This document shows, piece by piece, positions 14,729 to 40,136 of a stretch of 64,000 bases of DNA. The notes under the pieces are model-generated. The model saw only the letters and a list, made by a program, of their open reading frames with translations. It searched no databases and had not been told where the DNA came from. Each line of letters opens with the position of its first letter. The first letter of the stretch is position 1. Both the position numbers and the translations under genes were made by a program. Origin of the DNA: Owenia fusiformis (Eukaryota > Annelida > Polychaeta > Sabellida > Oweniidae). Where the stretch lies: positions 11,948,932-12,012,931 of the forward strand of contig CAIIXF020000012.1 in the NCBI GenBank assembly GCA_903813345.2. Reading direction: 5' to 3'.

Positions 14729-14734
14729 GATAAC

Positions 14735-15296
14735 TACGAAGCTTTAAAAGGGACATATTTTTCAAATTAAAAAAAAATCAATTTTAATTTTTCAAATCTC
14801 AAAAAAACTTATAAAAATTCACAAAGTACTTATATAAAATCTAAAAACTTTAATAAAACACAATTTTAGTTTTGTAATATATCAAAATATTAAATGAAAA
14901 ATCGATTTTTCTGTTTTAAATCTAAAAAACTTATAAAAATTCACAAAATACTTATCTAAAATCTAAAAACTTGAATGAAACAGGATTTGATTTTTGTAAT
15001 TTCGAAATTCATTTTTCAATTTATTTATTTTTTATATTTATGGAAAAATACCTAGATTACTTTAAAGAAATCAAATTAGTTTACAGATTTTAAAAATAGT
15101 TTTATAAAATACGATGGGACTTTTGCAATTCAAAATATTATTTTCAAAATAATTTTCCAAAAGTATAGAATTATAAAAATAATTTTGCAAAATAAAAAAT
15201 AATTTTACAAAACTAATATTGAAAATGCATAAGTATTTTAATTTTACAAAAGTCTTCTGTAAAGGAGATTTTGTAGAATCTAGATGCGGCGTGTCA
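14735..15296. repeat. Left terminal inverted arm of the giant element
   Basis: Outer 22 bp match the right end exactly. Inside lie two ~53 bp units (14807-14859 and 14929-14981) with the pattern ACTTATAAAAATTCACAAA..ACTTAT..AAAATCTAAAAACTT. These recur inverted in the right arm. The arm is extremely A/T-rich and closes with AAAAGTCTTCTGTAAAGGA (15248-15266) and GGCGTGTCA (15288-15296), both present inverted at the right end. The integrase start codon is 22 bp beyond, so this arm probably holds the integrase promoter as well as transposase binding sites. Confidence 0.8.
15248..15296 (+). promoter_or_regulatory. Inner box pair upstream of the integrase (probable promoter/5' UTR)
   Basis: AAAAGTCTTCTGTAAAGGA and GGCGTGTCA, 21 bp apart, end 22 bp before the integrase ATG. 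The same two boxes, 11 bp apart, occur inverted at 39535-39573 immediately upstream of the HECT gene's predicted first exon. Conservation in both arms against a diverged AT-rich background suggests a shared promoter or transposase-binding function. This is inference. Confidence 0.5.
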
Positions 15297-15317
15297 TGAC
15301 TTATAATCGAAGAAGAA

Positions 15318-17185
15318 ATGGAGTCAGATCGAGATGAATGTATAGCCACATACTTTGAAGACGGTTTTACGTACAAGGAGATCGGCATGTTGTTAAAGTT
15401 CCGTCATGGAATTACACTTTCGGAGAGACAGATCAAGAGGGATTTAAAGAAGATGGGGCTCTCAAGAAAATTCGATAAAACTGCCATTGGCACAGTTGCT
15501 GACGCTATCATTCAAGAGATAGATCATGGCAGTGGGTCAGCAATGGGATACCGGAGTATGCATGGCAAAATCACAAAAGTCCATGGGTAAGTCAATTGAT
15601 TGATCAATCTCCACAATTTTACCATCGGGGAAGTATCAATGTCCTGATTCCGGAATCGAGAATAGTATCTGGTACCCCGAATCCCGATTGTAAAATTGTG
15701 GAGATTGGATTTGAAAAATCAGCCCCACATTTATGAGGTACATGTATGGGAAGGCATAGGCTGGAATGTGATTCCGCCAATCAGATCACTTTAAGGCCAG
15801 CAACTATTCTGCCGTCAACTGAATACTTTTCTTGAAAATACCTACTGTATGCTGCCCATCAAGTCAGTTCAACATACACCAGTACTCAATACATGTTACC
15901 TAGGTCATCTCAGTACCTGTACCTGTCGCTTAGTTTTCATTGAAGGCAAACTCAATTATTAAAAAGATGTCATCATGACGTTTGAAACCGTTGCCACTTG
16001 TGGCATAAGTTAAAAAAGTTGTGTCGTATCTTAATCTCAGTACATGTATTTTCCCCTTTTTGGTCCTCGTCATCTCATTTTCTGGTATATGTCACCTCAG
16101 AGTGCTGTTGTTTCATTTTCTGTTACCCATCAATTCAGTTGTTCCCGTCAACTCAGTTTTGTACCTGTCATCCCGCCCAATAAGATACTCATAAAGTTCT
16201 TTACCATTATACTGTATTTCACTATTTTATCTCCCCTTTTTCTGGCATAAAATAAAGTATGACAGCTTTTGTGAATTGCAGGCTGAAAACAGATCATGAA
16301 ACAATTCGCCGTTTGCTCTCAGTTCTTGACCCAGAAGGTGTACACAAACGATCAACGAGACGCTTACAAAGGCGACAATATACATCTGAAGGGAGCAACT
16401 ATATATGGCATATTGATGGCTGGGATAAACTAACTCCATATGGTTTAACTGTCCATGGATGCTTGGATGGATTCAGTAGAAGAATATTGTGGCTCAAAGC
16501 AGGATCTTCAAATAAAAACTCTATGTTAATTTGCAAATACTTTTGCGATTGTGTTAAAAATGTAAATGGTATTCCAAAGATTGTTCGCGCAGATCGGGGG
16601 ACTGAGAATGTCAAGGTTGAACTGCTTCAAACTGTTCTACGCTCTGTAAATGATGACTGTTCATGTAAAGTTGCATTTCTGTATGGAAAATCAACTGCAA
16701 ACCAGAGAATAGAAAGTTTCTGGAGTAAATTTCCAATATATGGAGCAGCAATGTGGATATCTCACTGCCGCCAGCTGTTAGATGTTGGCATTATTGACAA
16801 TTCAAACATACTAGACATTGAGTGTATGAGATATTGTTACATGGATCTACTGCAAAGAGAACTTGACACAACGCAAAGAATGTGGAATACACACCATATT
16901 CAAAAATCAAAATCTGTCAGTTCAGTTAATGGGAAACCAGATATTCTGTACTTTGCCCCTGAAGAATTTGGACATAAGGATGTGTTGCAAAAGATTGACC
17001 AAGAAATATTTGCTCAGTTAGAATCTGACAATACTTGTGTTGTAGAAACTAACAAGGAACACTTCAAAGAATTATTCCAAATGCTTATGGAGGAAAGTGG
17101 AAAATCAACCCCTAACACATTAGAGGAGGCAAGAGAGTTGCTGGTTTTTCTGTTAGATAAAATTAATCATGAACTGCAACAATAA
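15318..17185 (+). CDS. DDE integrase/transposase of the giant element (two exons)
   Basis: Two coding exons, 15318-15586 and 16282-17185, join in frame. The donor is GG|GTAAGT, the acceptor TTGCAG|G, and the product has 390 residues. Residues 1-50 look like a helix-turn-helix DNA-binding region (FTYKEIGMLL, LSERQIKRDLKKMGL). The region around YIWHIDGWDKL to RIESFW is an rve/RNase H-like integrase core with candidate catalytic D135 (HIDGW), D194 (RADRGTEN) and E234 (NQRIES), spacing D-58-D-39-E. The surrounding sequence (LDPEGV, GCLDGFSRRILWL, NQRIE) matches the large family of uncharacterised metazoan 'integrase core domain' proteins. It presumably cuts and joins the element's ends in the nucleus. 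The ATG chosen is the first in frame after the left arm. The frame is unbroken and all three acidic residues are present. A candidate AATAAA poly(A) signal lies near 18274. Confidence 0.85.
15604..15709. repeat. Inverted repeat within the integrase intron
   Basis: TCAATCTCCACAATTTTACC at 15604-15623 continues to ATCGGG and is mirrored by CCCGATTGTAAAATTGTGGA, ending at about 15709. The arms are about 26 bp with one mismatch and about 50 bp between them. It lies just after the donor site of the only intron, so the pre-mRNA could form a stable hairpin there. It may be a small MITE or a structural element. Confidence 0.65.
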
Positions 17186-17657
17186 TCCATTGAATAAGCT
17201 TATTCACATCAGTAGGCTTTCAGATTTTTTGAATCAAGCCTGAAGTGTTGATGTTTTACAATTCTGTATAATTTGGTCGTAAAGCTGTTAATTGTAATGA
17301 TTTTTCAAGTGGTTGGAAGTTTTCAGGTAGTTTGTCGGTGCAAGGGTTTTTTCAAAATATCACCAAATGGCTAACTCCTACTTTGAATTGCAATTCTTTC
17401 ATTTCTATGTCAGTGCATCCATCTGTTTTTTTGTTGAAAATACAAGAGGTGAGTGAGTGAACAGCCAATTTGAAATTGTTAAATGGATGTTATAAAAAAT
17501 GACTTTGGGTGCATTAGACTAGTATTATGCAATGCAATTATATGAAATACTGTGTAATTAGCTAGAATTGGACACCTTTCCTTGCATAACATGAGCTCCT
17601 CTTTCGGTGGGATAATAATCGTATTGAATATATTGATAATGTTCATTCATTTCCAGT

Positions 17658-18190
17658 TTTTATGTCACCACCAAAAGTGGTGACATATTGTTATGGTCTC
17701 GTGGTCTGTTTTTTGTTACGGCGGTTGGTGTCTGGTATCTGGTCTGTAACAAATTCTTACAACTTTCAATAACTTTACAAATACTGTTTAGACTGACTTC
17801 AATTTTTTTCTGAAGCATCTACAAGGTCTTAGAAGTGCATATCTGACTTAAAATATGAGATTTGACCTTCAATGACCTTCTCAAGATCAACAAAAAAAGG
17901 TCAAAAAGGTCTTTTTTCAACTTGCTTCAAATTGACAAAATTTTTTTCCAAATCATCTACAAGTTCTCAGGAATTCAAATCTGACTTTAGATTTACGATT
18001 TGACCTTTAATGACCTTCTCAAGGTCAAAACGGTCTTTTTTACTCTGCTTCAAATTGCACAATTTTTTTTTCAAAATCATCTACAAGTTTTCTGAAGTTC
18101 AAATCAGACTTTAGATTTAAGGTTTGACGTGCTTTAAATTGACCAAATTGTTTTAGGTGGTGACATTTTGTCATGTTAATGCCTTGTTCT
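17658..18190. mobile_element. GTCACCACC-family MITE, copy A
   Basis: About 530 bp. One end carries the hairpin TGTCACCACC-AAAA-GTGGTGACA followed by TATTGTTATGG. The other end carries GGTGGTGACATTTTGTCATG and TTAATGCCTTGTT. The interior has two to three internal repeats of a ~100 bp AAGGTCAAAT/TTTGACCTT unit. Same family as copies at 21531, 27516, 31225 and 33483, and degenerate ones at 50838 and 55900. It probably falls within the 3' untranslated region of the integrase transcript. Confidence 0.8.
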
Positions 18191-19251
18191 TATTCCAGTC
18201 TATTGGGATGCACTGGAGTTTTACTTTTCCACTGTGGCCACCCTGTACAATATGCCATTATACTTGTGGGACAAATAAAATGAAATAAAAACACTTAGCA
18301 TTTTAGTATCTCATTATATTTCTCATAACTAATATTACACAGAATAAGGTATTTCTGAATTATACACACCAAGATGCACTAGGACTCAGTATTCCTTAAA
18401 AAGTAACATCATTATTTAATTCTTTGCAACTGCAAATATTGTTCTTCTTCGTTCTTTGGGATAATGAATGCATCTTAAGAAATTTAACTTATAAACTAAA
18501 AAGTACTTGTTATTTTGATACAAGTGTCAGATACTCTAGTTTACAATTATAAATCAGAGATTTAAAGAAAATTTGCTTCATTCTTTCTAAATATGGTATA
18601 AAAATGACATGGTATAATGATGTTTGGCATGTTCAAAATATTGGCAATATTTTACATGCTTCGAAGAGTAATTCTTAACATGATGTAACAGCAATCAATT
18701 TACAACAGATAAACTTCAGCTTAAATTATGCACAAATCAAGTACTGAACCGATTTCTTAATTGGCAATACAACTTACAGAAATCTCCACATTCTATCCAC
18801 AATTCACACTTACATGTAAATTCACATTTTCAGCATCTAGTAGTATTACATCACACAATCCATAGCAACAATAATCAACATCTTAAATTATTCAGGAATG
18901 TATATGATATACCTAATAACAGCTCTCATACAGTCATCAAAATTTAGTAATCAAAGTTTGTATAGAATCGTCTAATTGTTAATACTAAGTACTGTACAGG
19001 AACACTTAAAAATATCTTAAAACAAACTTTCTCAAGTACCTTTTTCATAGGCAAGCTAATGCTATAGGTATATTGATCATGACTAAATAAATATTTTTAA
19101 AAAGCTTTCAGAATCAGACTACAAGTGGTCCCACAATGTGTTGGACATGCATCCATTTTAGCTATAAAAATAGCAATCACATTTGAGTATTCATAGTCAA
19201 TAACATATGTCACAATTTTGATTGCATTTCTCTTCTTAGGAATGATAAATA

Positions 19252-19858
19252 CAGGGCGACTCAAAAAAAAATGACACCCACCTTTCGTTGCATAACTTGT
19301 TGGTCTATGGTCATACAGACTTGTCATTTAGCACATTTAAAGAAGACATAATGTGTAAAGACCTCAAGACATTTCAGATGTGTAGCTCAAATGGATCAAA
19401 TTTTATGAGCGTTACAAGATTTGTTCCATATGACATATATGACGTACATTCCTTTGTAGGCGAACATGAATTCTACAGGCAAAGTTGTTGATTACCCTTA
19501 CACATTGAGATATGGCCCTGATCTTCCTTGTAATTTCTCTCTTTAAGTCAGCTGTTTTGGGGATGTTTTGTCTCATACATATGGTCCTTTAAATACCCCG
19601 AGGTAAAAATTTGGTGGGTTAATATCAGGGGAATGGGGTGCCCACTCAATCTCAGATCTGCGGCTAATGAGAAAGTCTCCAAAGTGAGAATTTATTGTAA
19701 TGCTCATAAAATTTAAACCACTTGAGCTACATATCTGAAATTTCTCGAGGTGCTTACGCATTATGTCTACTTCAAATGTGCTAAAGGACAAGTCTATATG
19801 GTAATGGACAAATAAATTATGCAGCATAAGGTGGGTGTCATTTTTTGCGTCACCCTTG
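19252..19858 (-). mobile_element. Mariner-type remnant with ~190-bp inverted repeats
   Basis: TA lies at each outer edge (19250-19251, 19859-19860). The left end reads CAGGGCGACTC and the right end, reversed, CAAGGGTGACGC. The arms stay alignable for about 190 bp through ATGACACCCACCTT and ATTTTATGAGC. Between them the minus strand encodes WAPHSPDINPPNFYLGVFK (about 19655-19575), matching the conserved C-terminal block of mariner-like transposases (pattern PHSPDL.P.DF.L). The frame then ends in a stop, so the transposase is broken and mostly missing. Confidence 0.75.
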
Positions 19859-20179
19859 TACATGATGAACGTCATCCAAATATATCCTATTTTAAGAAAA
19901 TACACAAATTAACAATGTTTGGTCATCAACTGTTTCAATTTTGCTGGAGTTCTAATGAGATTGTGTGAGACTGGACCCAAAGCTATCCTATTTACACTGT
20001 AGAACTACTCCATAGTCAACTTTATTAGACCACAAGAATAATATTACGTCATAGTCAGTGCTCTCTCATGTTAAATCTTTTTGACACTATGCCTGACACA
20101 TATTCACTGTACCCTCCACTGTCCACTATTCACAAAACAGCCCCATTTTAATCCACTATGTTATAGAAGCGTCTGCAGT

Positions 20180-20880
20180 CTCCTTTGCCTTCAAACTAAT
20201 CATCAAACTAGACAACACTGAGCAACGCCGAAGCGTAGCAAATCCCATCGAACAGCCATTTTACAAAATCCTTCTTCTTTTTCAGTTATAGCAAAAATTC
20301 ATCATTTTAAAAATGGTCGCTCACTAGCCAAGAGTAATATATGTTTCTAAGTAGGCACATATACAATTTCAGCAAAATCACACACACAAACATGTAAATG
20401 GTGGCCATTTTTCAAAATGGCTGCCTACTACCTAAAGTGTCATAAAACAGTGTGCCATGCTTATGAGTATTCACATATCAAATATGAACAAAATCGCTCC
20501 ACTACTTTTGAAGTTACAGCAAAAATTGTAAAGTAGCGTGTAAAAGCCGCCATTTTTCAAGATGGCTGCCATGTGTTTCTTAAATATCTACATTTCTTGC
20601 TTTATCAATGTCCTATATAATTTTTTTACATTTTAAACACATTGCTATTACAGTTTTATATATTGTACCTAAATTACTGTAAAATCGGCACTAAAATGAC
20701 CGCCATTTTGAAACGAGTGGCCATTTTGAAAATCGGCTTTCGAGCAGAACTTCTACTCTCAAAACAAAATCGGGCAAACGGTATTTGAGTTATCCCCCGG
20801 ACAGACGGATGTACGGAAGGAAGGACGTACGGACGGAGGCGTTCCCTATATCCCTCCGAATTAGAGAAATGAATTCTCAG
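20180..20880. repeat. GCAAATCCCA / GGAC-run repeat family, copy 1
   Basis: Begins with an AAACTAGACAAC-like block and GTAGCAAATCCCATCGAAC. It contains TTCAAAATGGC/GCCATTTT palindromic blocks and ends with GGACGTACGGACGGAGG and CTATATCCCTCCGAAT. Copies occur at 29185-29385 and 38160-38906. The interior is non-coding. Ends of the type CCCAACGAAC and GTTCGTTGGGATAAT are mutually inverted in the better copy, suggesting a TIR element. Confidence 0.65.
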
Positions 20881-20995
20881 ATGATAGCTTTAAAATGCTA
20901 ATGCTAAAGAAATCTTAAGCTTCAGGCAATGTCCACTAAAAAATGTAAATCCTGACAGTGCGCCAGGAAACATGTACAGTATGTAGACAAGACTT

Positions 20996-23900
20996 TTAAT
21001 GTTTGCCAAAGTACTTATTACTAAATGCATAATCAAATTTTGCAAATACACTATCTTGTTTGATCCCATCATAATATGGAAGGCGGAAAGTATTTGTGCA
21101 TGTAGAAGATGTTGGGATATCATCATTGTTGTCATAGAATTCAATGGTTAATCCCGGGTCGAACCCTGTTATGGGTTCCGTTTCAGAGCCTGTTATGAAT
21201 TTAAGTATCATTGGGATATCAACTGGCCTGTTGCCATCTGAAAATACAAAATATGAAAAGTGAAACACATGTTTATTTTCATTCCAAAAGAGACTTACTT
21301 GTAATTCATAAGTTACTATACTAGTAGTAGCAATATTATGTGAAAAGCAAATAAAGTAAATAATTGAGTGAGTACAGTTAACCTGTATTGATAAATAGAG
21401 GACACTTTGATAATTTTGTTTAAACGAGACCTCTTTAAAGCACTTATATTTATTCCATATACTGTAATCAGAAGATGTAAGTCAGACTTAGTGTTTTATA
21501 CTTCTAATTAGCATTACTTGCGCTTGCATGTACAACAAGGCATTAACATGCAAAATGTCACCACCTGCCATTCAGCTATTTGTGATAGACACAAACTGCC
21601 GAACACTGAACACCAACCACCGAACACCATCCACAAAAAAGTTGGAGACCATAACAATATGTCATCACTTTGGGTGCTGACATAAAAATGAAAAATAGAA
21701 GATAATTATCAAAAATTGTTATTTACGCTGTACTTCTATTAAGTATTTGTTGAACATTCGAAATATTTTCTCTTCTTTTATTTTACTGTTGGTTCCCGCT
21801 TCGGAAAACACAGGTTTTACGAGACTCTTCAACTTGCGCATTGTCATGACTGCCTGGGTTCCTGGGCGAAGCAGATACCGCATAACGGGCTTCTTCCTTA
21901 CAAGCTAAAACAAAATGATTGAAGTACAGTTAGAGGTTTCAATGAATGCAAGTGGCAAATTAATATAACATTTGGATTTGTAAGAAAAGTTTTTATCTTA
22001 TGCTACAAGTGCATGCAACCATATTGTAATATATCCTTACGATTCTCAGAAAACCCATCTGACATTGTAATCAAAGTCTAGCTACAGATGCTGCCGTTTT
22101 AACATTTTTGAGAACAAGTTCCTGAATTATTGCACAAACACACAAATACATGTAGATGAAAAAATAGATGGATTGATGGGTACTCAAATAAATGGATTGA
22201 TGGGTACTCTCTCTGAACTTTGTTGGGTTTAAATATATATTTACCTCAAGCACACCATACATGTTCATTCCTCTTGAAAACTCTCGCTCTCCTCCATTTA
22301 GTTCTAAGCTTTCCTTATTTAAGAGTCTATCCATCTGCCCCTCTGCCAGGAAGTTGACAGGTGGTCCCTCAAAAAGCAATGCCATAGCTTAAATTAAAAA
22401 AAATATTTCATTTATTTTCTTCAAAGAAAACATTTATGACCCCTACATATTTTTAGCTTTCATTTGAATCTAATGGAAAGTACAAAGGCTACTTCATATC
22501 AAAGATCAGAGTGACGAAATGACGAAAACTATTCAACTTATTTTGAAGCGGAAGTCAATACTCTAAAACGTTTTTAGAAAAGTTTTTCCATTTAAAATGT
22601 CTTTGGAAATTTGAAAATGCCTGGTGAAAAAAATTATGTCCAGCCAAAATGTCTGACAACGGATTAGTCCTTAAGGCAAGCACTGGATGGGATAATTAAC
22701 TTTAGAAGCAAAAATTAAAGAGCCCATAGGCCTAATATTAGTTTAGACAGCTACTCACCAACAGCAACACCAGCAGCAAAATATCCTATGTGTTCTCTTT
22801 CACTAGTACTGATCCAGCACTCATTGTTGATCACATTTAGGAATGGTGAATCATCGCCTTTGATGTACCTGCAATAATTTATCTTCGTGAATCTTCAATA
22901 AGTTTAAATAATGCATTATGTACCATTCAAATGTTTGCATGAGACACCCCACAAAAGGGTAGAAAATTATCACAGTAGCATCCAAGGAGGTGGGATACTG
23001 CCATCATACTGTTTCCTGGGAGTAGGAACTTCTGAAATGTGAATTCCTCCTGGGTATTTCATGTATTTCAACTATATTTGACCAGCTATTATTGTTACCA
23101 GGATGGGGAATTTAACTCACTTGATTGCTACATAGATGGGGAATTTGGCAGCCCATTTTCTATTTTGTTGAAATCAAGTCTCAGTAAAACCTTTAAATAT
23201 TACATTATCTAATTCTATATTACAGTATGCTCAATCCACTGTTGTTTTTCAGAAAACCCAAAACAAACAAAATAGTCTGGGAACATAACTTGTACTGGTC
23301 TCACCTCCCATATACATCTTAATCCAAGATTTTCTTGGAGGAACATTCATACATACAGCTTTTTGTTTGACCAATTTTATATCTGCATTGAAACTGAATG
23401 AAAATCAGATATCATAAAAAATATTATACAGTAGCAAAAAGAAACAAGACACTAGGAAAACAATACTGCACTCTTGAATAGAATAGACAGTTTTTGGAAT
23501 GAAAAGTCCAAAATGGCTATATTAACATTTACTCAGAATGACCAAAAACTAATCATTACTAGACTTTCAATAAATAATTGAGCTAAAAAATTTAGGTCAA
23601 ATGGTTTGGCTTGAAACATACAGACAAGACTTTTCAGACGAGATTTTAAGAATGAAAATCCAACCCCTTATGAAAAATCTTGCAAAGGTTACAATATTAA
23701 TTCCTTCATAATATTTTCACTTGCTCCAAGTTACATAATATAATATAATAATAGTTTAATAATACATAATAGTTTATTCCAATTTTAACATGTTACATAC
23801 ATATAATCATATACAATTTGACGCAAAGCGTATATTGTAGTTCAAAGATCAAAAGTCAATATTTGTAAATACAATTATTTTAATGGAGTGTAGGAATGCA

Positions 23901-26900
23901 GGAAAAGTGAGATGGTAGAGTCTGCTAGAGTTACATATAATAAATTAATAAGTTGATATAATATGATGTTTAAGTGCTGCCTTGAACATAACTGTACTGA
24001 CACTGTGCTTAATTTCATTAGGTAGTTTATTATAATATGATGGTCCAATATATTTAAGTGAGTCCCAACCAAACTTAATGCGGTATTTAGGTTGGACTAA
24101 AAGGTGTTTAGATCTTGTGTCATGGCCATGTTGGGAAATTTTAAAATAATCTTTAAAAATGTATATAGGAAAGCCAGATGGTATGTTTAAGCATTTATAT
24201 ACAAATGTAGCAACATTTAAATGATAAATATCAAAAATTGTCAAAATGTTTTCTTTTTTGAATAAAGGGGCAGTGTGCTCTCTAAAATGTGAATTTGTAA
24301 TCAATCTGATACATTTCTTTTGAATAAGATGTATTGGTGTAAGTATGTTCTTTTTTACATGACCCCAAATAATATTGCAATAGTTAATTTGAGAAAGGAT
24401 TAATGAATGATATACTTTAAGTTTAGAGTCATGATCAAGGATGTCTCTTACTTTATAGAGAATGCCTGTTATTCTTGATATCTTATTAGTAATATGCTGA
24501 ATGTGCTTTTTCCAATTCAACTTTTCGTCAATAAATACTCCAAGAAAGTTAACACTACTTTCTCTTTTTATTGGCACATTGTCAATATGTATATTTATGT
24601 CATGGATTAAATTTCTGCCTGGAGTAAAAATTATGAAATTAGTTTTATCTAAGTTGAGAGATAGTTTGTTAGCTTTAAACCATTGATTAATTGTTTGCAG
24701 TTCTTTGTTTAATAGTCTAACTAGTTCATCCATATTACGATTAGATATAAGTAAATTAGTATCATCTGCATATAATACAAATTTGATGAGATTTGAGGTT
24801 GAAGTAATATCATTAATGTACATTAAAAACAAAGTCGGTCCAAGTATAGACCCTTGAGGTACACCACATTTAATAATATCTTGATTTGAAAAAGTGTTAT
24901 TGTAGCAAGTGATCTGTTTTCTGTTTTCTAAGTAGGAAGTGAACCAATTTTTTACATTTCCCCTTAACCCATAAAAATCAATTTTTTCAAGTAGAATTTT
25001 GTGATCAACAGTGTCAAATGCCTTGGATAAGTCAAGAAACAGTCCTATGTTAAGTTATTATCATCGAGAGATGTTCTGAGGTTTTCAAGAAAAGTTAAAA
25101 TTGCCATATAAGTTGATTTGTTTGGTAAAAAACCAAACTGACTTGAGGTCAGTATTTTCTGCTTTATTATGAAATCTATGAGTCTTTTATGCATGAGTTT
25201 CTCTAGCACTTTTGAAAAGATGCTAAGAAGAGAAATAGGCCTGTAGTTTGAGAATAAACTAGGTTTTCCCTTTTTGAAAATTGGTGTAATTTTAGCTGTT
25301 TTTAGAATATCTGGGAAAATGCCATTTACAAAAGATAAATTGCACAGGTGACTAAGAAGTGGAGCTAATATATGTTTACAATATTTCAAAGCACAGGCCT
25401 TAAACCCATCTATTCCCGGAGCCCCATCCTTAAGGTTAGAAATTATCAAGGACATTTCATCTGGATTTATTGGATTTAAAAACATTGAGGTAGGAATGCG
25501 ATTATTTTTCCTAAGGAACTCATTATGTGAAGTACTACATGAGATTTTACTTGCAAGCCTAGGACCGATATTTGTAAAATATTTATTAAAATTTTCAGCA
25601 ATTGATTGATTGTCTCTATGAAATACGCCATCATTTTCAAAGAAATCAGTTGAAGAAGCTTTAGTATTTTTTCTTTTTAATATTGAATCAATGACCTTCC
25701 ATGTGTGCTTTAAATTACCCTTGGCATCATCAATTTGTCGATTAAAATGGGTCTTTTCCGAATTGCGTATCATTGTAGTAAGTGTGTTTTTATAAATTTT
25801 ATACCTTGTTTTATTTTCTTCTGAAGGATTTTTTAAGAAGGCTTTGTATAATGTACCTTTATGCTTAACTGAAGTAAGGATAGCTGGGGTTAGCCATGGT
25901 TTATCAGTATTAATTATACATTTTGTTTTAAGTGTTTTAAGTGGAAAAGTGTCAATATATATTCCTTTGAAAATTCCAAAGAAATGCTCAAAAGCAGAAT
26001 TAGTATCTTCAATTGAACAAGTGTTTGACCAATCAATTAAAGCCATCTTGTTTTTAAAAATGTTCAAATTATCAGAATTTATGACTCTATAAGTATTGGT
26101 TTTTTGAACAAGTGTGTGCAATTGCTTATTTGTAGTAAAAAAGATGGGAAAATGGTCAGAGATGTCAGAAATAATGATTCCAGATTGTTTAATGTTGTCA
26201 ATTTTGTTGGTGAATATATTGTCAATTAAAGTCGCTGATGTAGCTGTGACTCTAGTTGGTTTAAAAATAAGTGGATTAAGACCATGTGTTGTTATTATGT
26301 TTAGAAAACGTTCAGATTGAGTATGATTCTCCAATTTTAAAAGATCAATGTTAAAGTCTCCCATTAAATAAACATCTTTGTTCTCACTGGTTAAGTTGGT
26401 CATAAAAACTTCAAGAGAGTTATTAAAATCAATCATGTTAATATTTGGAGGTTTATAGCATACTGAGACGATGATATTTCTAGCATTATCCTGTGGTAAT
26501 TCAACTGACAAAATATCACAGTTTGGCATAATAAATGATAAATCAGGTCTCTCAATATACATAGAAGAAGCAGAAACATATAATGCCACGCCCCTTCCTC
26601 GAACTTCTCTTGATTTAAAAAGGCCAGTATATCCATTAATTGGATAGAAAGTTTCATCTTGCTTAGAGAGCCAAGTTTCACTTAATGCAATAATTTTGAA
26701 TTTATGTGACATGAGGGCTAATAAATTATCTAACTTCCAGTTATTTTTTTTTCATACTTCTCATGTTAAGATGGATACAAGAGAGATTGGGATCATTTGG
26801 CGTGTCGGAATTAATATTTTCCAGTGTCTTATAATTACAGTGCTCAACTAATGATGACACATTATCATTGGTAGGAATATTATTGAACTTGTCTTCTTCT

Positions 26901-29900: not shown

Positions 29901-32900
29901 GTTTTAAGTGAAGATTCATATGAGGGTCCTGTTGAGAGGTTCACTCCTAAATAATACTTTCTAATGACACTGAATGAACTTACTGTATATCACTGGCACC
30001 TTCAACTGCCTTTCTGATGGTATCCTCATTCCTGAAAATTCAACAAATGCTTCATTAAATAACAGCTTTTCTACAACTGTTTCATTTTTTAAAAATCTTT
30101 CTAATCAAGAGATGTACACATTATGGCTGGATAACTGAGAGAGTCGAAGATGTGCTTGGCAAATCCAGTAAACCCAGCTTCAGGAAACCAGGTTTACTGT
30201 TTGTTTCTGTTGACACCTGTGCAAAACTGCATTCGTAATCCATACCACAATGAACAGGAGGTTAACAGTCAAACCCAGGTTTGCTAGTCCCTTATTAGAT
30301 TTTCGTATCACAGACCAGGGTTCGAGGCTATTCCAGGCCATAAAATATAAAAGAATCGCTTAATCAGAAAATTGTTTGTGTTATCTACCAAGACATTAAA
30401 CAAATATGAAATAGTACTTATTATGAGTGGTCTAAAATAGGCAGAGTTAGAAGACCCCTTATACTCATTCTGTCTCTATTTCTACATTAGATAATGGAAG
30501 AGGAGTCCCCTTTGCATTTGTTCGACTTCGCCTCTTAAAAGAGAGCTTTGTCTTTGGAATTTATAACAAGACTCTGCACGCAGGGGAGAAGTCGAAAAAT
30601 CCCAGAATTCAAGATTGGACCCTGTTTTCATATAAAGATGACATGGTTTTTTGCAAAGGTAAATTTGGAGAGCAGCAAACCTGGTTTTGAGGGTGCAATC
30701 TATGCCAATGAGTGCTTCTGGGATAAATGGACAAAAATTGGATGGATCAAATACTGTACGATTGAATGGACCGATTACTTTTAAAATCTTATTCAAATCT
30801 TTGCTCCTAACTATTTCTGTTAGATAACAATGCTTTCTAATGAACTTACTGTATTTCACTGGCAGCTTCAACTGTCTTTCTGATGGTATCCCCTTTCCTG
30901 AAAATTCAAACAAATGCTTAAATATTTTCTGCCACGTTTTGTTAACATATCTACAGGTAAACTAAAATTAATTAATACTTTTTACCAATGGTTCTGGGTT
31001 TATTATTCTAGACCTGATTACTTTTGGGCATGCTTTGTAAACTGTAAGATGACTGGCTAAATGTGGAAATTTGCATTGGATTACAGATTTTTCTAGTTGA
31101 TCTTACTCCATCCCATAATAATAAAGTGGCTCAGCCTGTAACACAATATACACCTGAACTGAAAACACCAAAATTAACTGAAACTTTTCACAATATTCTC
31201 TCAAAATTGCACCATCAAGTTCTAACAAGGCATTAACATGACAAAATGTCACCACCTTGTTGCTCACAATATTATGTGTTCAAGTCTTTTTGGCGGTGAC
31301 TAAAAACATTCTTTTCTGTAAATGTCTGAAAAATTGGTATAACAATAAAAGAAAAAGGCAAATATGTATTCAGGCAGTTAGAGCATTTAGACATATGGAG
31401 TTCTAAGTATGGATTATTACTTTTGATACTGCATGCGCATATAGTGCATGTATGTACTTACGATGTCGTAATGTCTGCACTCGAACCATTGAGATCCTCT
31501 TCATCAGTCATTGCTGAGCTAAAATGAAAATTTAAAGAGGTGTCATTTTTATACCAATTCTCATATTCTTTGATGTTAGGGTACTATTCTTTGTTTTATA
31601 CCATTCTAAGTGTCTTCTTTGCACCTCAATTTAATTTTCAAAAATTGGGAAAATCTAATTTAGCACTAAAATTGTCAAATTCAAGATCCACCCCTGCAAA
31701 TCACTCTGTTATGTCTCTTTTGAGACTTAATATTAATGAAGAGTCTCATCTGAATTCCCCATGGAAAAAATGACTATTTTAGAGGGAATCTGCATTGGCA
31801 TTAATTTTATCCATGTAGTTTTGATCAGGGAGGTGGTACTCTTTAAATTCTGAAGGATATGGAGTGAAGCATTCCACGTTTAAAATGCCTCATTCCTCAT
31901 TTCTTGGATTGCTCCCATGACATATTTCCTTCATCAGAAGTTTGAAAACTGATTCCACTGAGCTTTTGGTTATGAGGATGGCCTTATGTCCTAGGGCATT
32001 TTCCCAGTGAAGGCTGTAAGAATCATCTATCCCAGTCATGTAATTGCTACTGTGGTGCTTTCTCAGAAAATAAAATAATTGACTAAATATTGTCTGAGAT
32101 TATATATGATCCTACATTGAATCACTGACATTAGATTCCCATGGTAAAATGAAATAAATAGATAATTATATTGAATTATCAAGTCCAGAACCAATCAAAT
32201 AGTAGAAGCTTTAATCTTGAGGTATTAACTAAATAATGTTTGGGGAACATCTGTGCCAAGTTTCAAGAAGATTGGTCTAGTAGTGACATTACTTCTGGAT
32301 CACCTTGTATGTTGTTATTTATAGAATATTAATTACCTGAATGGGTAGCGAGTCTTCATCACTTCAATATCACTATTGCTGTCACTGTCACTTTCTTCAT
32401 CATTCACTGGAATACACTTGCAAAAAAGTCTTATCTGTCCTGGTATTAATTTAGCATCCAGATATTTTCGTAATGAAAAAACACCATCCACTGCATCCTC
32501 TACACTTCGCCCAGTAATGTCTGTCAGTGTTAGATTATAACAGTTTACATTTCCAATCATTATATTTAGACCCTTGGGAAATAATGCAGCTTTCACCTGT
32601 TGAAGAATATCATGGTAAGAGTCTTGTGTTCCACAAGTTAGCTGAATAAAGTTTTTATCTCCTAATGGAGACTTCACTAATGTAAGCTTTGACTTTTCTG
32701 ATGCGGAGGCTACATAAAGACCAAACTGTACCACTCTCGAACTTTTCAACGGTCTTCCCATTTTTTCAGTTTTGGATTGTGTGCTGCTCATCATCATCTT
32801 CAGCAACTTTTGTCGCCTATCATCTGGAAAGTAGGATACATACTTTTACCACAAAGAATAACTTATTTTAGCTTTATTAAAGGTCATTTATTCTTTACTA

Positions 32901-35900
32901 GTTATGAATACTATGGGGACGGTTAGGGGACAATGACCCATGAATTAAACATTAATTTACATGATCAGTTCACTTTCACAAGTAATGGTGATTTAAAGTA
33001 CTGACCCTCAGAACCCTAAATACTCCAAACTTATTGGTGCAAAATAATTCAAGTATAAAACATTAATGTTCATGACCAGTTCACTTTTGGATGCTTGTAA
33101 CCTAATTCAAGTGCAGCATAATGTTTTACTTATTCTCTTTATTTGATTGATATTAAGTAAATAGCAGGAGCACTTGGCCATGTAAATAGTGTTGTTGGGT
33201 TAGGTCAATATTTCACTGTTCGTCAAAAAACGTAATTGATTTAGCAAGGTTTTAACCCCCCTCGAGCCTCCCCCTTCTCACAAAAGTCAAAATGTTGTTT
33301 CGTGTACAGTGTTAAAGAATCAAAATGTTGATTTGCATGCAGTGTACAAGTACAACCCCAGCACACAATATCTGCTTCTGCTATAAACACATATCAAATT
33401 CTCTATCATATCTGTTGTATATTAAATGATCATACCATTGCAGAAGATGAAACTCTGAAATCAATGTCTGTCACCTAATTAAACAAGGCATTAACATGGC
33501 AAAATGTCACCACCTAAAAAATTGGTTAATTTAAAGCAAGTTGAAAAAAGACCGTTTTGACCTTGGGAAGGTCATTGAAGGTCAAATCTGAAATCTTAAG
33601 TCAGATTTGAGCTTCTGAGGTCTTGTAGATGACTTTGAAATTTTGAAGCAAGTTAAAAAAAGACCTTTTTGACATTAAGAACTTTATTGAAGGTCAAATC
33701 TCAAATCTAAAGTCAGATTTGAACTTCTGAGAACTTGTATATGATTTAGAAAACAATTTAAGTCAGTCTAAACAGTATTTGTTAAGTTATTGGAAGTTGT
33801 AAGAATCTGTTACAGACTCCAACCACCAACCGCCATCACAAAAAAACGGAGACCATAACAATATGTCAACACTTTTTGGTGGTGTCATAACAGGGATTTA
33901 CACCCTCCCCCCTTACATAATTAATTACGTTTTTTGACGCACACTGAAACATTGACCTGACCTCTTAAGCAATTTAAAGTACTCGCAACCTTGAATACTC
34001 CAAACTGGTGCAAAATACTTCTTGTATTTAAAACATACATGATCAGTTCACTTTGGTATGCATAACAATTTTTAAATCATAGGGTTGAAGGATTGTATCA
34101 GATTAGCCATTGGTATATTCGCTAGAAAATCAACTAGTATTGATGTAATATTGTAAACATATACATGTTGGTAATAGCACAATCAGTTCAAGTTATTACC
34201 TGATTACAGCAGTAATATATTTTAAAGATCTCAAATGAAATGATTTAAAGTAAACACTCAGAAACCTAAATACTCCATACTGGTGCAAAATAGATCACAT
34301 ATTTTAACATTTGTTTACATGATCAGTTCACTTTTGGAAGCATGTAATCTAATTTCAGAGCAGTTTAATGTGTTACCAATGATCATTAGTCTTATGATGG
34401 TAACAGATATCTATCATATCTGGAGCGTGTGGCAATGTACAGAGTATCTAAGTGATGGTGAATTGAAGTACTCACAACCCTCAAGTTCCGAACTGGTGCA
34501 AAATATTTCACATCAATTTACATGATCAGTTTCCCTTTCAATATGTAACACTAGATCTGATTATATCTCTTAAACATCTCAAACATACTCAGAACCCTAA
34601 ATACTCCATACTGGTGCAAAATAATTCAAATATTTAACATTAATTTACATGACCAGTTCACTTTTGGAAGCATGTAACCCAATTTCAGAGCAGCTGTTGC
34701 AGCATGTTGATAAATAGATAGCTGGAGCACATTTCTTGAATTTAACATGTAATATAAATAAGTAAGAAAATCTATTGCAAGGGCGGAATTGCTTGATTGC
34801 TATGTTATTTCAAGGATACACGTTTTTAAAAAGGGCTAACTATGCTACAGAAGCCAAATAGCTGGCAGTTGAGCCCAAGTTTTTATAGAATGAACATCAA
34901 AGTTATGAATTGATGCTATGGTATTTTATGAAATTATAACTCAGATAGAATTTAGTTCTTTTCAAAGGATATGATATAGATTCAGTCAATGTGCACATTT
35001 AAATATAGGTCATAAGTTAGTTAGGATAAGTTAAAAAGCATTACAAAAGTCCAAACAAAGATAGAAGAATTCAAAACACAGACAAAGGAATTTACCTTGT
35101 CCCAGTTCTACTACAAGGAGACAACATAGATGGTACAGGTAATATTACATATATGTAACACCACTTTACATGTTGATCAGTAGGTGTAATGTGATATATT
35201 TTAAACATCTCAAACACACAGATTTAAAGTACATACTCAAAATCCTAAATACTCCATACTGGTGCAAAATATGTAATAGTCATGTAATTCAGTATTTGTT
35301 AATATGACTAGTCCACTTTCGGAAGCATGTAACCTATTAGCCTACATGCAAGTAGAAATAATCTTGATTTACATCATTAAATATTCAAAATTCAGTCGAT
35401 GTGATACCATATTGAAATCTACATGTGGTAACAAAAACAGTTAATCAACTTTCAAAATTTAATTTTCTTTGAAAATGTGACTTCTAGGTCGGGGAGATTC
35501 CCCATAGAGCCCATGTTATAAAATCACAAAAAGTGAATGATGTCTTTTCATTTAGTGGACAGATAGTGGACAGATAATATTTTGCTTTACTTGACATTTT
35601 TTTCATTTGTATAACTATCAGATACATAAGGGTTATATGAAAATTATTCGACCAGAACAGATGGATATTTAAGTTTAAGGGCACTTTCTGCTATACCTGC
35701 CATGCTATTTACGCCGAATTAGCCACCTGGTGGTGAAACTGGTTACTAGTTATTACTACCTACTTGCATCTGGGTAATTCCAGTGCAGCATAATGTGAAA
35801 CTAATACTCCATTAGTTTAATTATGGTAAATAATTACACAGAGTACACAGCCATTTAAAAAGTACTTGAGCAAAGATGGTTCAAAGTACCCAAACCCCCA

Positions 35901-36157
35901 ATTACTCCAAACTGGTGAATGGTGCAAAATAATACACTCATTTGACATTGATTATAAACAAATACTTCTATACAAATTATAAAAGTGCTACTGTTAAAAG
36001 TGTACAGTGTACCTGTATATCCAAATAAATAATAAATACCTGAAGACACACTACCACTACTAGTGCCTGGACTGGTATTTGGTGTTGGTTGGCATTTTAC
36101 ACCACAGTGACAGCAAAAGTTTCCCACAGCTGGTTTCCCACAGCCAGTGCAAAACAT
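20996..36157 (-). CDS. Zinc ribbon-HECT E3 ubiquitin ligase-like protein of the giant element
   Basis: Eleven coding exons with canonical GT-AG borders stay in frame: 36157-36040, 32823-32337, 31518-31462, 30897-30850, 30031-29984, 29476-29426, 27267-26971, 22868-22759, 22387-22245, 21904-21727 and 21237-20996. They total 1,779 nt, 592 residues plus stop. Residues 1-22 form a zinc ribbon (FCTGCG..FCCHCG). Residues 40-202 are unrecognised, with an acidic serine stretch (DEESDSDSNSDIE). Residues 221-252 are two copies of a UIM-like helix. Residues about 340-592 are a short HECT domain like that of G2E3-like proteins (VMYDGENAKDLGGPRREL, FAAGVAVG), with candidate catalytic Cys559 in TSSTCTNTFRLP. 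HECT ligases form a thioester with ubiquitin before passing it to lysines. The target is unknown; regulation of transposase or host factors is inference. The intron at 26970-22869 holds a LINE. Confidence 0.83.
21531..21690. mobile_element. GTCACCACC-family MITE, copy D (short)
   Basis: About 160 bp, internally deleted. It runs from ACAAGGCATTAACATG and AAATGTCACCACC to GGAGACCATAACAATATGTC and GTGCTGACATAA. It lies in the intron between the last two HECT exons. Confidence 0.75.
23740..26950 (-). mobile_element. CR1/Jockey-group LINE in a HECT intron, ORF2 with two frame breaks
   Basis: Minus-strand non-LTR retrotransposon. Fragments 26947-26741, 26712-25045 and about 25044-23945 together read through an apurinic endonuclease (IIALSETWL, LMGDFNIDLL, SDHFPIFF) and a reverse transcriptase (DGAPGIDGF, YRPISLLSIFSKVLEK, FLDLSKAFDTVDHK, CGVPQGSILGP, FVLYADDTNLL). 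Two breaks exist: one A too many in a nine-A run near 26742-26750, and one missing base near 25045. The region upstream of the endonuclease is short, so the copy is probably 5'-truncated. The 3' end has a TATTA/TATTAT tract near 23740. It begins only about 20 bp past the splice donor of the preceding HECT exon, on the same strand as the host gene. Confidence 0.85.
27516..28480. mobile_element. GTCACCACC-family MITE, copy B, split by another MITE
   Basis: Reads from ACAAGGCATTAACATGAC to TTTTTGGTGGTGACATAA and is close to copy C at 33483-33890. It is interrupted at 27856-28356 by a different element. It lies in the 2.1 kb intron before the exon at 27267. Confidence 0.85.
27856..28356. mobile_element. 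501-bp TA-flanked MITE nested in copy B
   Basis: Begins CCGGAGTTTCTTGCGAATAG and ends, in reverse, CCGGAGTTTCTCGCGAATAG. Further inverted GGGCGTTTATT / AATAAACGCCC motifs repeat inside. TA is duplicated (27854-27855, 28357-28358). The related MITE at 33483-33890 reads AACAGTATTTGTTAAG without interruption, giving a natural empty site. TA duplication suggests a Tc1/mariner-powered element. Confidence 0.9.
29185..29385. repeat. GCAAATCCCA / GGAC-run repeat family, copy 2 (short)
   Basis: Contains AAACTAGAAAACAGCAAC, GAGTAGCAAATCCCACC, GGACGGACGGACAGACGG and TATATCCCCTCGAAC, then TTCGGTGGGATAAT. It is internally deleted relative to the copies at 20180 and 38160, and lies in a HECT intron. Confidence 0.7.
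29984..30897 (-). repeat. Tandemly duplicated 48-nt exons of the HECT gene
   Basis: Exons 30897-30850 and 30031-29984 are each exactly 48 nt, in the same phase, with matching acceptor context (GAATTTTCAG) and donor context (ACA|GTAAGTTCAT). They encode GDTIRKTVEAASEI and EDTIRKAVEGASDI. Flanking intron sequence is also similar, so a block of exon plus intron borders was duplicated. The motif resembles a ubiquitin-interacting motif with Ala at the usual Ser position. Confidence 0.75.
31225..31306. mobile_element. GTCACCACC-family MITE, copy E (remnant)
   Basis: Only about 80 bp remain: AACAAGGCATTAACATGACA, TGTCACCACC, and then the far end TTTTTGGCGGTGACTAAA. It is intronic in the HECT gene. 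Confidence 0.65.
32990..35990. repeat. Irregular array of ~110-bp units in a HECT intron
   Basis: The block TACTCCATACTGGTGCAAAA or a variant occurs at least seven times, near 33023, 34000, 34270, 34487, 34604, 35248 and 35901. It is usually followed by TTTACATGATCAGTTCACTT and GGAAGCATGTAACC. Spacings vary from about 120 to 980 bp, with a GTCACCACC MITE inserted in one gap. All copies face the same way, indicating old tandem expansion inside the intron between the first two coding exons. Confidence 0.75.
33483..33890. mobile_element. GTCACCACC-family MITE, copy C (uninterrupted)
   Basis: About 408 bp, from AACAAGGCATTAACATGGC through internal AAGGTCAAATCT units to TTTTTGGTGGTGTCATAA. It is the uninterrupted sister of copy B and provides that copy's empty site. 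Confidence 0.85.
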
Positions 36158-37659
36158 GTCTGTAAAACAAAAATTTCATTAATCTGAGAATAGTGGTAGT
36201 TTAGAAAATACATCACCAATAAAATGCATGATGGGGCTCCCGTAGGATAATTGCAGCATGCACAATTTACCTATTTCTAATCACATTTCCACATATATGC
36301 GAATATGCTCACTATTTCTTTGCATTATTTAGGACCATAGACGAGAAAACCCTGTTTCGAAATCTGAGGGGGCCCCCGATTGAAATCGTGAAAAACTTTG
36401 CAAATTTAATCACTTATTCTGGACGTTTTAATTCAAACGGTTTAATATCTTAAAATAAAATAATGTCAGCAGATGTGGTTGTCACAAATCGAGCTAATTT
36501 AAAGTTTAAATGTCATTGGAGATAAAGTTTCTTATTTGTGTCATGGAAAATCCTGAACTTCCAGATTGGGATTTACCAAATTAAATAAACGGCTTTATTA
36601 GATTCTAGCCACATTTACAATTTTACCGGCAATCATCTAAATGATTGATTTAACTTCTGGTATCAGTAAAACCCTAAATCATTCGAAATTCAAATGTAAT
36701 TGGTCGTAATTGGCATCCATGGTATTGCCAAAACAAGATGGCTGCAGGTCCAGATAGAATTCAAAATGGAGGGAGTTTGTATTAATTCACGGTATTTGTT
36801 TGTGAATTAAAGCTAATGATGGTCTGTGTAAAATTTAATTAATGTGTATACAGTATGCACAAAAGTTGAACAAAGGGTCGATCAGACTCAATCTTACTTG
36901 AGTGTGATAATTGGTTACGTAACAAAGCTTTACTGCATGGTCATGGTGTATTCTACTCTATTTTTATGCATGCTTCCAGGCCTATGCTGCTTATACTGCA
37001 TGTTTACTAGTATTTTAGAAAATGTGAATAAAAATTGGTAATTTAAAATTGTATATGTTGTATTTACCCTTCAGGAACCCCAAAATGCATTTTATTAGTG
37101 ATGTATTTTCTAAACTACCGAGAATGGTACATCCTTCCAAGCATGTATTAGTACCATAAATTAAAGTATAAATGTCATTGGTCATTTCAAAATATATGGT
37201 ACATTGTCATCATAGCCAGTCAATTATACTTTACATGGCAAATGTAAATTTTGCCTAATCACCGGTAAATTATATCAATTCATTCAACTCACTTAATCAT
37301 CAATTCACACATAGCTAGGCAAAGTGTGTCAGATTCCAGCCAATCCGAACAGAGTATTTTTACATGACAGCAGTGCATGAAATAATCAACAATAACGCAT
37401 TTGTTGTGTATAGGTCACCAGTATGATATTCACCCGGTCCTGGGGTAACACCTACTGGTGCACTGATATGCTGCATGGTGAAATGTGTCTATAGGCAAAG
37501 GCAACGCAAGACAAAATATTTTGGAAAATATTCAATCAGACATTCTTTTTTCAGACCCAATGTCATATTTGGATAAGATTTACAATTCCTGTGATCGTGC
37601 CACATATAACGCCACGCGATTACGTGTTGATTTTAAACTGAATTTGCAATGAAAACGAT

Positions 37660-37665: not shown

Positions 37666-37699
<34 letters not shown>

Positions 37700-37707: not shown

Positions 37708-38159
37708 TGGTACTTTCATTTCTCACATGTTTGATAGCGGGTCATTAACTCTTAGCCTATTATCCATGTCTTATTTTTCACAAAAAAAACTCAGAGGAAC
37801 CCCGCAGAATTCCAGCAGAATTGGCTTTTTTCTTTGCAGAATTCACTAATTTCACTTGCAGAATTCAGTATTTTAACTCACGGAAAACTGGGGGGAGTGC
37901 CCTAGGCCCGGGAGGTTCACTGTATACAAAATTCAGCGGGTTCCTAGGCTGAACCCTCAAATATGATCAATATGTTCCCATACCAATCTGTTAAATTTCA
38001 ATGTGTTCCCATACTGACAAAAATAATGCCCCAAAGCACACCAAATGTCCAAATATAAGACCATTGCCATACCACATGTCCAGATGTAAGACTAAGGCCA
38101 TTTAAAATGTCTAAAGCCCCGAGAAGAAGGCAGATCTTTGAGGAAAACGATCCAAAACA

Positions 38160-38906
38160 ACCTCAAACTAGAAAACTGCAACTCCGCGAAGTAGCAAATC
38201 CCAACGAACAATATATCAATTACCAAATTAATTCCAATCAGTCATAGAATTGAAAAATTTAGATTTTATGATTGCGAATTCCTGAAAGGCAGCCATTTTG
38301 AATTTTCTGAGGTACAAATCTGAAAAATAATACCATAATTGTGATCTACTCTAAAATTCCTTCAATTTGAGTATAATATAGGCATACTTTGAAGGGATCG
38401 CAAAATTATTGCGAAATCCAACATTAGGCGGCCATTTTGAATTTCACGAGGTCTGAATCTGAAAAAAGATACAATCAACTCTAAATTGCCTTTCATTTGA
38501 GTATAATAAAGCTATACTTCAGAAATACCTCAAAATTAACGAATATTTCTGTTTTCCTGACCCCCCATACACGGCCCCAGGGGGTCAGCATGAAAAACAA
38601 GGAATATATGTGAAATAAATAGATGTTGTGAATATACTACCAAAATTTCAAACAAAAATATTTATTACTTTGGTTTCGAATGAAAAATTCATGATTTTTA
38701 CGAAAAAGTCTAGTCATTTTTAAAGCGGCGGCCATCATGGAAAATTTTTTTTTGGGTAAAACTATTCACCAATATACATCGTTCCACCAAATATGAAGAA
38801 AATCCGTCAACTGGTATTTGAGTTATCTTCCGGACGGACGGACGGACGGACTGACAGACGGAGGGCTTCACTATATCCCTACAGAACTTCGTTCGTTGGG
38901 ATAATT
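38160..38906. repeat. GCAAATCCCA / GGAC-run repeat family, copy 3 (fullest)
   Basis: From AAACTAGAAAACTGCAACTC and GAAGTAGCAAATCCCAACG, through GGCCATTTTGAATTT blocks, to GGACGGACGGACGGAC, CTATATCCCTACAGAAC and TTCGTTGGGATAATT. The CCCAACGAAC and GTTCGTTGGG blocks near the two ends are inverted relative to each other. Non-coding. Confidence 0.75.
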
Positions 38907-39485
38907 AAGGATATGTGTAACTACTAGACCAATGCCATACACAAGTGAGAGGCAATGTATTTTCCATGACCATTCTCATACCAGGAGTGGAAAAATCTGA
39001 CCATTGCCATACCTCAAATCATAATTTAGGGGGCATTCTCATTCCAGATCCTAAAAATTGGGTCCATTGCCATACCAAATGTCAAAAAAGGGACCCCACA
39101 TGAGCCGAGGATCCCCCCCGTCAAGGTTTATATACAGTCAACACCCCAGGCTAGGAGCCCTGGCCCTGTGTCTAGTATTCAGTCAGTGAAACCCCTGCTC
39201 TAGCTAACCATCCCATTAAAAAAAATCAGGGTGATCAACTTTGGCCAAAAATCACTTGAACTGAGTTCTAAATTGTTGAAAAACTGCATGATTTTGAATG
39301 AATTTTTGTCCAGGCCGGTCTGAGGGGGGGTGATGCACACGTGGTTCACGTCATGTCTGGCTTTTGAATGGTTTATCTGTAAAGTGCAACATCTACGTTA
39401 TTTTGAACAAACAGATTGCCTTACAAAGGTAAAATATATAAAAGATAGTCCACTAGTATAGACAACTAGGCCTACATATACTCAC

Positions 39486-39580
39486 TTTTCTGCTTGACAA
39501 TTCCCGCTTCCTTCACTTCCGTTAATTTCAACCGTGACACGCCACATAAAGTTTTCCTTTACAGAAGACTTTTAAAAAAT
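39486..39580 (-). promoter_or_regulatory. Predicted promoter and non-coding first exon of the HECT gene
   Basis: Just inside the right arm, the minus strand carries AAAAGTCTTCTGTAAAGGA (39573-39555) and GGCGTGTCA (39543-39535), the same boxes found before the integrase start. About 50 bp on lies a GTGAGT splice donor, so transcription beginning here would give a short untranslated exon spliced to the ATG-containing exon at 36159. The transcription start itself cannot be read from sequence. Confidence 0.5.
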
Positions 39581-40130
39581 TTCAGACTTATCTAAAAATC
39601 TGAACTGACTTATGAATTTCCAAAATCAGTTTTGCAAAAAAAAATTGCAAAAATATTTCTAAAAAATTATTATAATTTCTATAAATCATTTTACATTTAC
39701 ATATTTGATTTTTGAAATCCTAAAATAGAGTCTAAAGTTTTAAGGATTTTCTAAAAGTGTTTTTAAATCTTTAAATTGATTTTTAAATCAATTTATTTAA
39801 TTTTTTTATATATATTTTGAAATTAAAAAATTAAATTTTCAAATTACAAAAGTTACTTCAATTTTTATTAAAGTTTTTGAATTTTAAATAAGTGTTTTGC
39901 GAGTTTTCAAAAGTTATTTATGATTTTAAAAAACTATTTACATTTTTATTTAAGTTTTTAAATTTTCAATAAGTATTATGTGAGTTTTTATAAGTTAATT
40001 ATGATTTTAAAAAACTATTTTTATTTTTATTAAAGTTTTTAAATTTTCAATAAGTATTTTGTGAGTTTTTAAAAGTTAATTATGATTTTCAAAAATAGAA
40101 ATGAAAAAATGTCCCTTTTAAAGCTTCGTA
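39535..40130. repeat. Right terminal inverted arm of the giant element
   Basis: Outer 22 bp mirror the left end exactly. Three subterminal units (40024-40076, 39944-39996 and 39864-39916, about 80 bp apart) carry, in reverse, the ACTTATT.AAAATTTAAAAACTT pattern seen in the left arm. The arm is highly A/T-rich and ends with the shared inner boxes. The two arms differ in unit number (three against two), so outside the termini they are related rather than identical. Confidence 0.8.
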
Positions 40131-40136
40131 GATAAC

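Follow-up and report, generated by a model that had tools for sequence, protein, structure and literature searches.

A DNA transposon family of Owenia fusiformis with predicted genes for an integrase-type transposase and a HECT-type ubiquitin ligase

The window analysed here is a stretch of 64,000 nucleotides from the annelid Owenia fusiformis (contig CAIIXF020000012.1, here C12). It holds a copy of a DNA transposon of 25,396 bp (14735-40130), inside which two spliced genes are predicted. These encode a DDE transposase, related to integrases, on the plus strand and a protein with a HECT domain, the catalytic domain of a class of E3 ubiquitin ligases, on the minus strand. The ends, the genes and the other copies of this element in the host genome are described below, together with what the ligase might do for it.

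The copy is flanked by an exact target site duplication, GATAAC, at 14729-14734 on the left and 40131-40136 on the right. Its termini are 22-bp inverted repeats starting TACGA (14735-14756, plus strand, and 40109-40130, minus strand), which are identical at 22 of 22 positions. This terminus, TACGAAGCTTTAAAAGGGACAT, lies in inverted orientation at both ends. With up to 3 mismatches allowed it is found at only 2 places in the window, namely these two ends, and in none of 100 shuffles. Adjoining the termini are AT-rich, repeated subterminal arms of 400 bp each. According to TRF, the left arm (14757-15156, plus strand) consists of a unit of ~122 bp present 1.9 times and the right arm (39709-40108, minus strand) of a unit of ~81 bp present 2.9 times. 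The two arms are homologous in inverted orientation (alignment score 157, versus 47 in direct orientation); 500 dinucleotide shuffles of both arms gave a mean of 44 (standard deviation 7, maximum 88), and none of 600 other comparisons inside the window scored above 39. Such repeated arms are plausible transposase-binding arrays. As a test of the unit as a whole, 67 self-similar pairs were found in the window, none of which joins the inside of the element to the outside, and only 2 of 640 circular shifts were equally good, both at the element's own place. The identical ends, the GATAAC flanks and the inverted arms had been pointed out in an earlier note on this DNA, and are confirmed by these comparisons and shuffle controls.

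The exons of both genes are predictions from sequence alone. Transposase exon 1 (15318-15586, plus strand) begins with an ATG at 15318, is followed by a GTAAGT donor and encodes a Clr5/helix-turn-helix (HTH)-type N-terminus (PF14420, E 5.5e-6 for the exon). Exon 2 (16282-17185, plus strand) encodes the DDE integrase core and ends with the stop codon. The two exons join in frame to a predicted protein of 390 amino acids, which matches the Pfam families rva_4 (PF24764) at 1.4e-32, Clr5 (at the N-terminus) at 6.7e-5 and, below the cut-off, rve at 1.5e-4. The N-terminus matches Clr5 and HTH models, and the HHCC finger is absent. The nearest curated bacterial families (NCBIfam) are IS3 (1.5e-8) and IS481 (7e-5), each match being far below the family's own cut-off. 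Residues D135, D194 and E234 sit in the motifs WHIDG, RADRG and RIESFW, by which they would be the catalytic three. Comparison of the transposase with solved structures yielded eight unrelated synthases (E 0.39-0.68) and was of no use.

The HECT gene is convergent with the transposase gene; its coding part, on the minus strand, extends from 36157 down to 20996 and is split into as many as 11 exons. The phases match, all ten introns are bounded by GT..AG, and the joined frame contains a single, terminal stop, versus 56 and 58 stops in the two other frames. Exon A (36040-36157) carries the ATG and, by reading of the sequence, two CxxC knuckles (C3-C6 and C15-C18); an acceptor-like TTTTACAG just upstream of it suggests a further 5' exon. 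Exon B (32337-32823), present in 15 of the 17 genomic copies introduced below, encodes a region without known domain or fold; a structure predicted from this single sequence had a pLDDT of 37 and was not used. Exons C (31462-31518) and D3 (29426-29476) are placed by phase and splice sites, and between them lie D1 (30850-30897) and D2 (29984-30031), two optional exons of 48 bp, each in phase. They fall within a duplicated stretch of 81 alignment columns (30839-30919 and 29973-30052) that is 92.6% identical. Depending on these exons the predicted protein has 576 amino acids (without D2), 592 (with D2) or 543 (without D1, D2 and D3). Exon E (26971-27267) marks the start of the N-lobe, aligning weakly to the N-lobes of Itch, Rsp5 and AREL1, and joins exon G (22759-22868) in phase; a candidate exon F (23393-23305) breaks the frame and was dropped. 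Exon H (22245-22387), supported by phase and splice sites, and exon I (21727-21904), which has a 2-bp deletion in one copy, lead to exon J (20996-21237). Exon J encodes the C-lobe, with the putative active-site cysteine in the motif TSSTC (C543 of 576) and a phenylalanine four residues from the end (PF00632, E 5.9e-11 for this stretch). Exons E and J are both present in 17 of 17 copies. A scan of 36000-37000 for bacterial-type promoters gave 2 promoter-like sites, fewer than the shuffle mean of 4.4.

The spliced HECT protein matches PF00632 at 1.7e-10 with 41.5 bits (cut-off 23.9), the match spanning only positions 191-284 of the 306 in the profile. Solved HECT domains gave weak matches (E 0.003-0.1) over the N-lobe start and the C-lobe. 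Cys543 is preceded by TSST, and the four C-terminal residues, FGKH, place a phenylalanine at position -4; a phenylalanine near the C-terminus matters in HECT enzymes. The protein thus shares with HECT E3 ligases such as AREL1, Itch, Rsp5, WWP1, E6AP and HUWE1 the HECT domain, the cysteine in a T-C motif and the phenylalanine near the C-terminus. It differs from them in that it is transposon-encoded, its N-terminus consists of two CxxC knuckles and an unassigned region, and its structure matches are weak. Pfam recognised no domain in the putative substrate region. The earlier note had described the CxxC region as a zinc ribbon, a label that does not stand, as only two CxxC knuckles are present and no Pfam family matches them at E <= 1. 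Its central claim of two spliced genes, for a DDE integrase and a HECT protein, agrees with the frames, phases, splice sites and Pfam matches.

Between HECT exons E and G the intron contains a long interspersed nuclear element (LINE; 23736-26931, minus strand) with endonuclease (PF03372, 2.5e-6) and reverse transcriptase (PF00078, 6.9e-26) domains. This LINE of 3,196 bp (element positions 9002-12197) is absent from 10 of the 10 other copies read at whole length; it is confined to the copy in the window and is of more recent date than the transposon family. For this reason its use as a clock (two frameshifts by reading in the LINE, none in the genes) was abandoned. In a Pfam survey of the open reading frames of the element (all seven frames of at least 120 amino acids and four of 102-111, two only in part), only the transposase, the HECT protein and the LINE scored above cut-off. 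The interior also contains several copies, partly inverted, of a dispersed repeat family (17660-18188, 27513-27855, 28356-28471 and 33480-33890), which is found nowhere in the flanks of the window at E 1e-8.

A search of the host genome (498 Mb in 525 contigs) with the 122-bp left end identified 17 places at 99-100% identity, the window included, besides more diverged ones. The right end was found for 15 of the 16 other copies, and in all 15 the 22 bp are perfect at both ends. With the window, therefore, 16 copies have perfect ends on both sides; 15 of these are flanked by exact 6-bp duplications, all of different sequence, and the copy on contig C5 by one of 7 bp (ATAGGAG). In the C6 copy the left end is altered, a right end is not among the matches listed, and transposase exon 2 is split; in the 16 others this exon is open over its full length. 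Since both genes are paired in all 17 copies, the ligase gene moves together with the transposon. The earlier note had supposed the ligase to be part of the mobile system and had proposed to look for further copies with both genes, matching ends and different duplications; such copies were found, and they support the supposition in so far as the gene is carried by the element. Among the host-genome loci fetched, no match spans the joined flanks as an empty allele would.

Ten other copies were read at whole length and compared with that in the window. All ten match the window exactly in the two transposase exons, and all 11 HECT exons are present at full length in eight. Six of these eight are identical throughout the HECT exons, one has a single change in exon B and one has the 2-bp deletion in exon I. 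The eight are 21.4-23.4 kb long. Thus, the large size remarked upon in the earlier note is mostly intrinsic to the family, but 3.2 kb of the 25.4 kb in the window belong to the private LINE. The remaining two copies (C2:3.2M and C10:29.6M; L126-L129) measure 16.8 and 17.4 kb and lack HECT exons B-D3 through a common deletion, whose junction is equal at 240 of 240 bases. Their duplications, ATTATG and GACCTC, place them at different sites. They represent a young deletion subfamily, in which a copy with the deletion has transposed one or more times or has been carried along.

More distant relatives also occur in this genome. Three loci (L146, L147 and L148) have diverged ends, with arms 81-85% alike and terminal inverted repeats bearing 3, 4 and 1 mismatches; neither gene is present in the ~5 kb taken of each, and they are perhaps short non-autonomous relatives. 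Sequences related to transposase exon 1 at 52-82% identity are found at C4:23847593 (L149), C6:3985691, C9:11980551 and C1:39810745 of the same assembly (G000), and are likely to mark other families of the same kind. The 2.8 kb taken at L149 contain neither transposase exon 2 nor HECT sequence.

Comparison of the ten whole copies with the window also provides information about constraint. Before masking, 203 substitutions were counted in 182,334 non-coding bases and 1 in 28,138 coding bases; as distinct variable sites, this is 98 of 19,248 non-coding versus 1 of 2,952 coding (p 2e-5). After masking of both arms and of all sites no more than 12 bases away from a gap, 1 of 2,952 coding sites is variable versus 55 of 18,323 others (two-sided p 0.005), although error of alignment or assembly in AT-rich DNA would act in the same direction as constraint. 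Per gene, the masked counts are 1 of 1,779 for HECT (one-sided p 0.036) and 0 of 1,173 for the transposase (0.033). The sole coding change, in HECT exon B, is synonymous. Masked non-coding divergence from the window amounts to 79 differences in 171,837 bases. These figures are taken as fair though not strong evidence that selection maintained the two genes while the family spread.

In all features tested, the element fits the IS3EU/GingerRoot type of DNA transposon, as the earlier note had suggested for IS3EU. The transposases of Ginger1 and Ginger2 are likewise integrase-related, but the ends and target site duplication lengths of these elements differ from those of the window element. Ginger1 has an HHCC domain, according to the accessible part of PMC10045372, in contrast to the Clr5/HTH N-terminus and 6-bp duplication found here. 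The same source (Kojima and Bao 2023) describes IS3EU families as always ending in TA..TA, usually flanked by 6-bp duplications and devoid of the HHCC finger, and groups IS3EU with GingerRoot in one lineage (bootstrap 99). The window family has the termini TACGA..TCGTA, a duplication of exactly 6 bp at 15 of 16 sites (7 bp at the other) and an IS3/IS481-related DDE transposase without HHCC finger. It differs from the described families in its size, ~22 kb without the LINE, and in its gene for a HECT ligase; neither HECT nor ubiquitin is mentioned in the main text of that paper.

A parallel in gene arrangement comes from fungi. In the part of PMC12730594 available to us, all TET-bearing IS3EU families are reported to carry the TET gene between oppositely oriented transposase and alpha-kinase genes, and its author suggests that TET counters silencing. 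Like the window element, these fungal elements combine a transposase gene with a second enzyme gene in opposite orientation and a 6-bp duplication. However, their second enzyme is an alpha-kinase with TET/JBP in between, whereas the window element has a HECT ligase and no recognised TET gene. The window family is laid out likewise, the HECT ligase taking the part of the second enzyme; the parallel is one of analogy. The main text of PMC12730594 does not contain the words HECT or ubiquitin either.

No pairing of IS3EU with HECT appeared among the literature matches listed, a search that lay outside most subscription papers and Repbase entries. HECT is absent from the main text of one of the papers listed, and a paper on bivalve transposons mentions neither IS3EU nor HECT. 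In virus and prokaryote collections, 77 stretches selected by pattern (5, 0 for the 22-bp end, and 18 viral contigs, and 54 genome contigs) matched neither protein at E 0.1, a sample that says little about animals. Viral contigs searched by protein gave none (one of the six peptide patterns used in one search was derived from an intron). The best matches in these collections, L004 and L005 at E 0.2-0.3, lie by reading within phage structural genes.

We estimate at roughly nine in ten the probability that the element in the window belongs, as one of many copies, to an IS3EU/GingerRoot-type family that spread recently and has its own transposase and HECT-type E3 ligase gene. The transposase would bind the repeated subterminal arms through its N-terminal helix-turn-helix, cut at the TA..TA ends and join them to the target with a 6-bp stagger, cut-and-paste movement being assumed from knowledge of the family. 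HECT enzymes take ubiquitin onto their cysteine and pass it to a substrate chosen by the N-terminal part. We infer that the ligase has a function for the element, and likewise how it would work: it may act in trans, ubiquitylating a host factor that restrains transposition, for example through silencing or repair. A host factor is the target that we rank as most likely, if only tentatively. In a wider and similarly tentative form of this proposal, an animal lineage of IS3EU could possess a HECT ligase as standing second gene, serving as counter-defence by tagging a host silencing or repair factor for degradation, in place of the fungal alpha-kinase and TET.

Several observations weigh against these proposals. 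The HECT domain scores modestly, with most of the match due to the C-lobe, and one copy has the 2-bp deletion in HECT exon I. Because the two deletion copies lie at different sites, the whole ligase is not needed in cis. In the analysis of constraint, 34 of the 99 unmasked variable sites fall in the last kilobase, that is, in the repeated right arm, and the masks were picked after this cluster had been seen. A parent HECT gene in the host is possible, and a distant one may have been missed, as scoring covered only 76 of the genome's 155 HECT candidates.

The HECT gene could also be a passenger, caught once by the founder of the family, common to all copies because the family is young and without a role in transposition. 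The copies are so nearly identical (the 79 masked differences given above) that one capture before the burst suffices, and the reading is kept alive by the deletion copies without exons B-D3, which reached more than one site. However, the HECT exons vary less than the other sequence and their only change is synonymous, even if the HECT test by itself is weak (p 0.036), and in the superfamily's fungal members a second gene for an enzyme is retained, oriented against the transposase gene, as far as the portion of PMC12730594 referred to above goes. On balance, a mere passenger seems unlikely.

Alternatively, the ligase might target the transposase that the element encodes, either keeping its level down or removing it from DNA after joining. 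HIV-1 integrase, an enzyme with the same class of fold, is broken down through the ubiquitin system of its host (PMC6389893, in the part available), but the substrate region of the HECT protein lacks any recognised domain. Such self-control is improbable in our estimation, and less likely than action on a host target. That the two ends derive from different elements with ordinary genomic DNA between them, a view to which the length and the spliced gene content, unusual for a simple DNA transposon, might have lent itself, is refuted by the sixteen sites that share these ends and this interior and have matching duplications.

If selfish DNA with its own E3 ligase is indeed what the family represents, there would be a direct link between transposons and the ubiquitin system, like that of some viruses, and a testable route by which a transposon handles its host. 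The case is unusually clean, with sixteen copies with perfect ends, genes mostly intact and natural deletion copies for comparison. Some of the repeated HECT genes in animal genomes may then be transposon genes. Should the ligase serve in counter-defence, the superfamily would be a platform that swaps enzymes rewriting host protein or DNA marks, and the window family would be active enough to test this idea.

The element is also distinguished by its CpG content. The ratio of observed to expected CpG is 0.45 inside the element and 0.88 outside, and the contrast at its exact borders exceeds that at all 320 shifted positions, although neighbours within ~1 kb come close. The best segment with two change points is a CpG-depleted block at 16641-36299, covering most of both genes; it starts inside exon 2 of the transposase gene and stops 142 bp above exon A of the HECT gene. 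It contains 204 CpG among 3368 C, versus 1142 among 7763 outside, and 200 block permutations reached at most 35.6, compared with 89.6 observed. The element's own borders fit less well than this block (log-likelihood -4022 versus -4012). The block is uneven (0.66 at 27900-29425 and 1.04 at 20500-20995), and depletion is seen outside it as well (0.42 at 39000-39700). In all 11 whole copies the ratio is low (0.44-0.56), so the loss predates the burst.

CpG loss serves as a footprint of 5-methylcytosine (5mC), according to the available text of PMC8857923, and that of PMC11292947 states that most invertebrates have 5mC concentrated on genes that are transcribed, and some also on transposons. The idea that the CpG loss reflects silencing of the entire element is weakened by the fitted block, which follows the genes, and by the extreme ends, which look undepleted (with 7 and 2 CpGs only). 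The pattern is suggestive, though not proof, of transcription and methylation of the ancestors of these copies in a germ line.

Outside the element, a tandem array of ~350-bp units that are 83-87% alike is located to its left (11721-13057), and a dispersed repeat of 130 bp occurs in four copies (11199-11329, 44203-44345, 48989-49125 and 61211-61350). To its right, the interval 58749-59384 reads as an exon like that of a two-pore potassium channel and is likely part of a host gene; Pfam Ion_trans_2 lies just below its cut-off there, and a homeo-prospero match is also below cut-off. A gene for tRNA-Arg (ACG) is located at 53212-53286.

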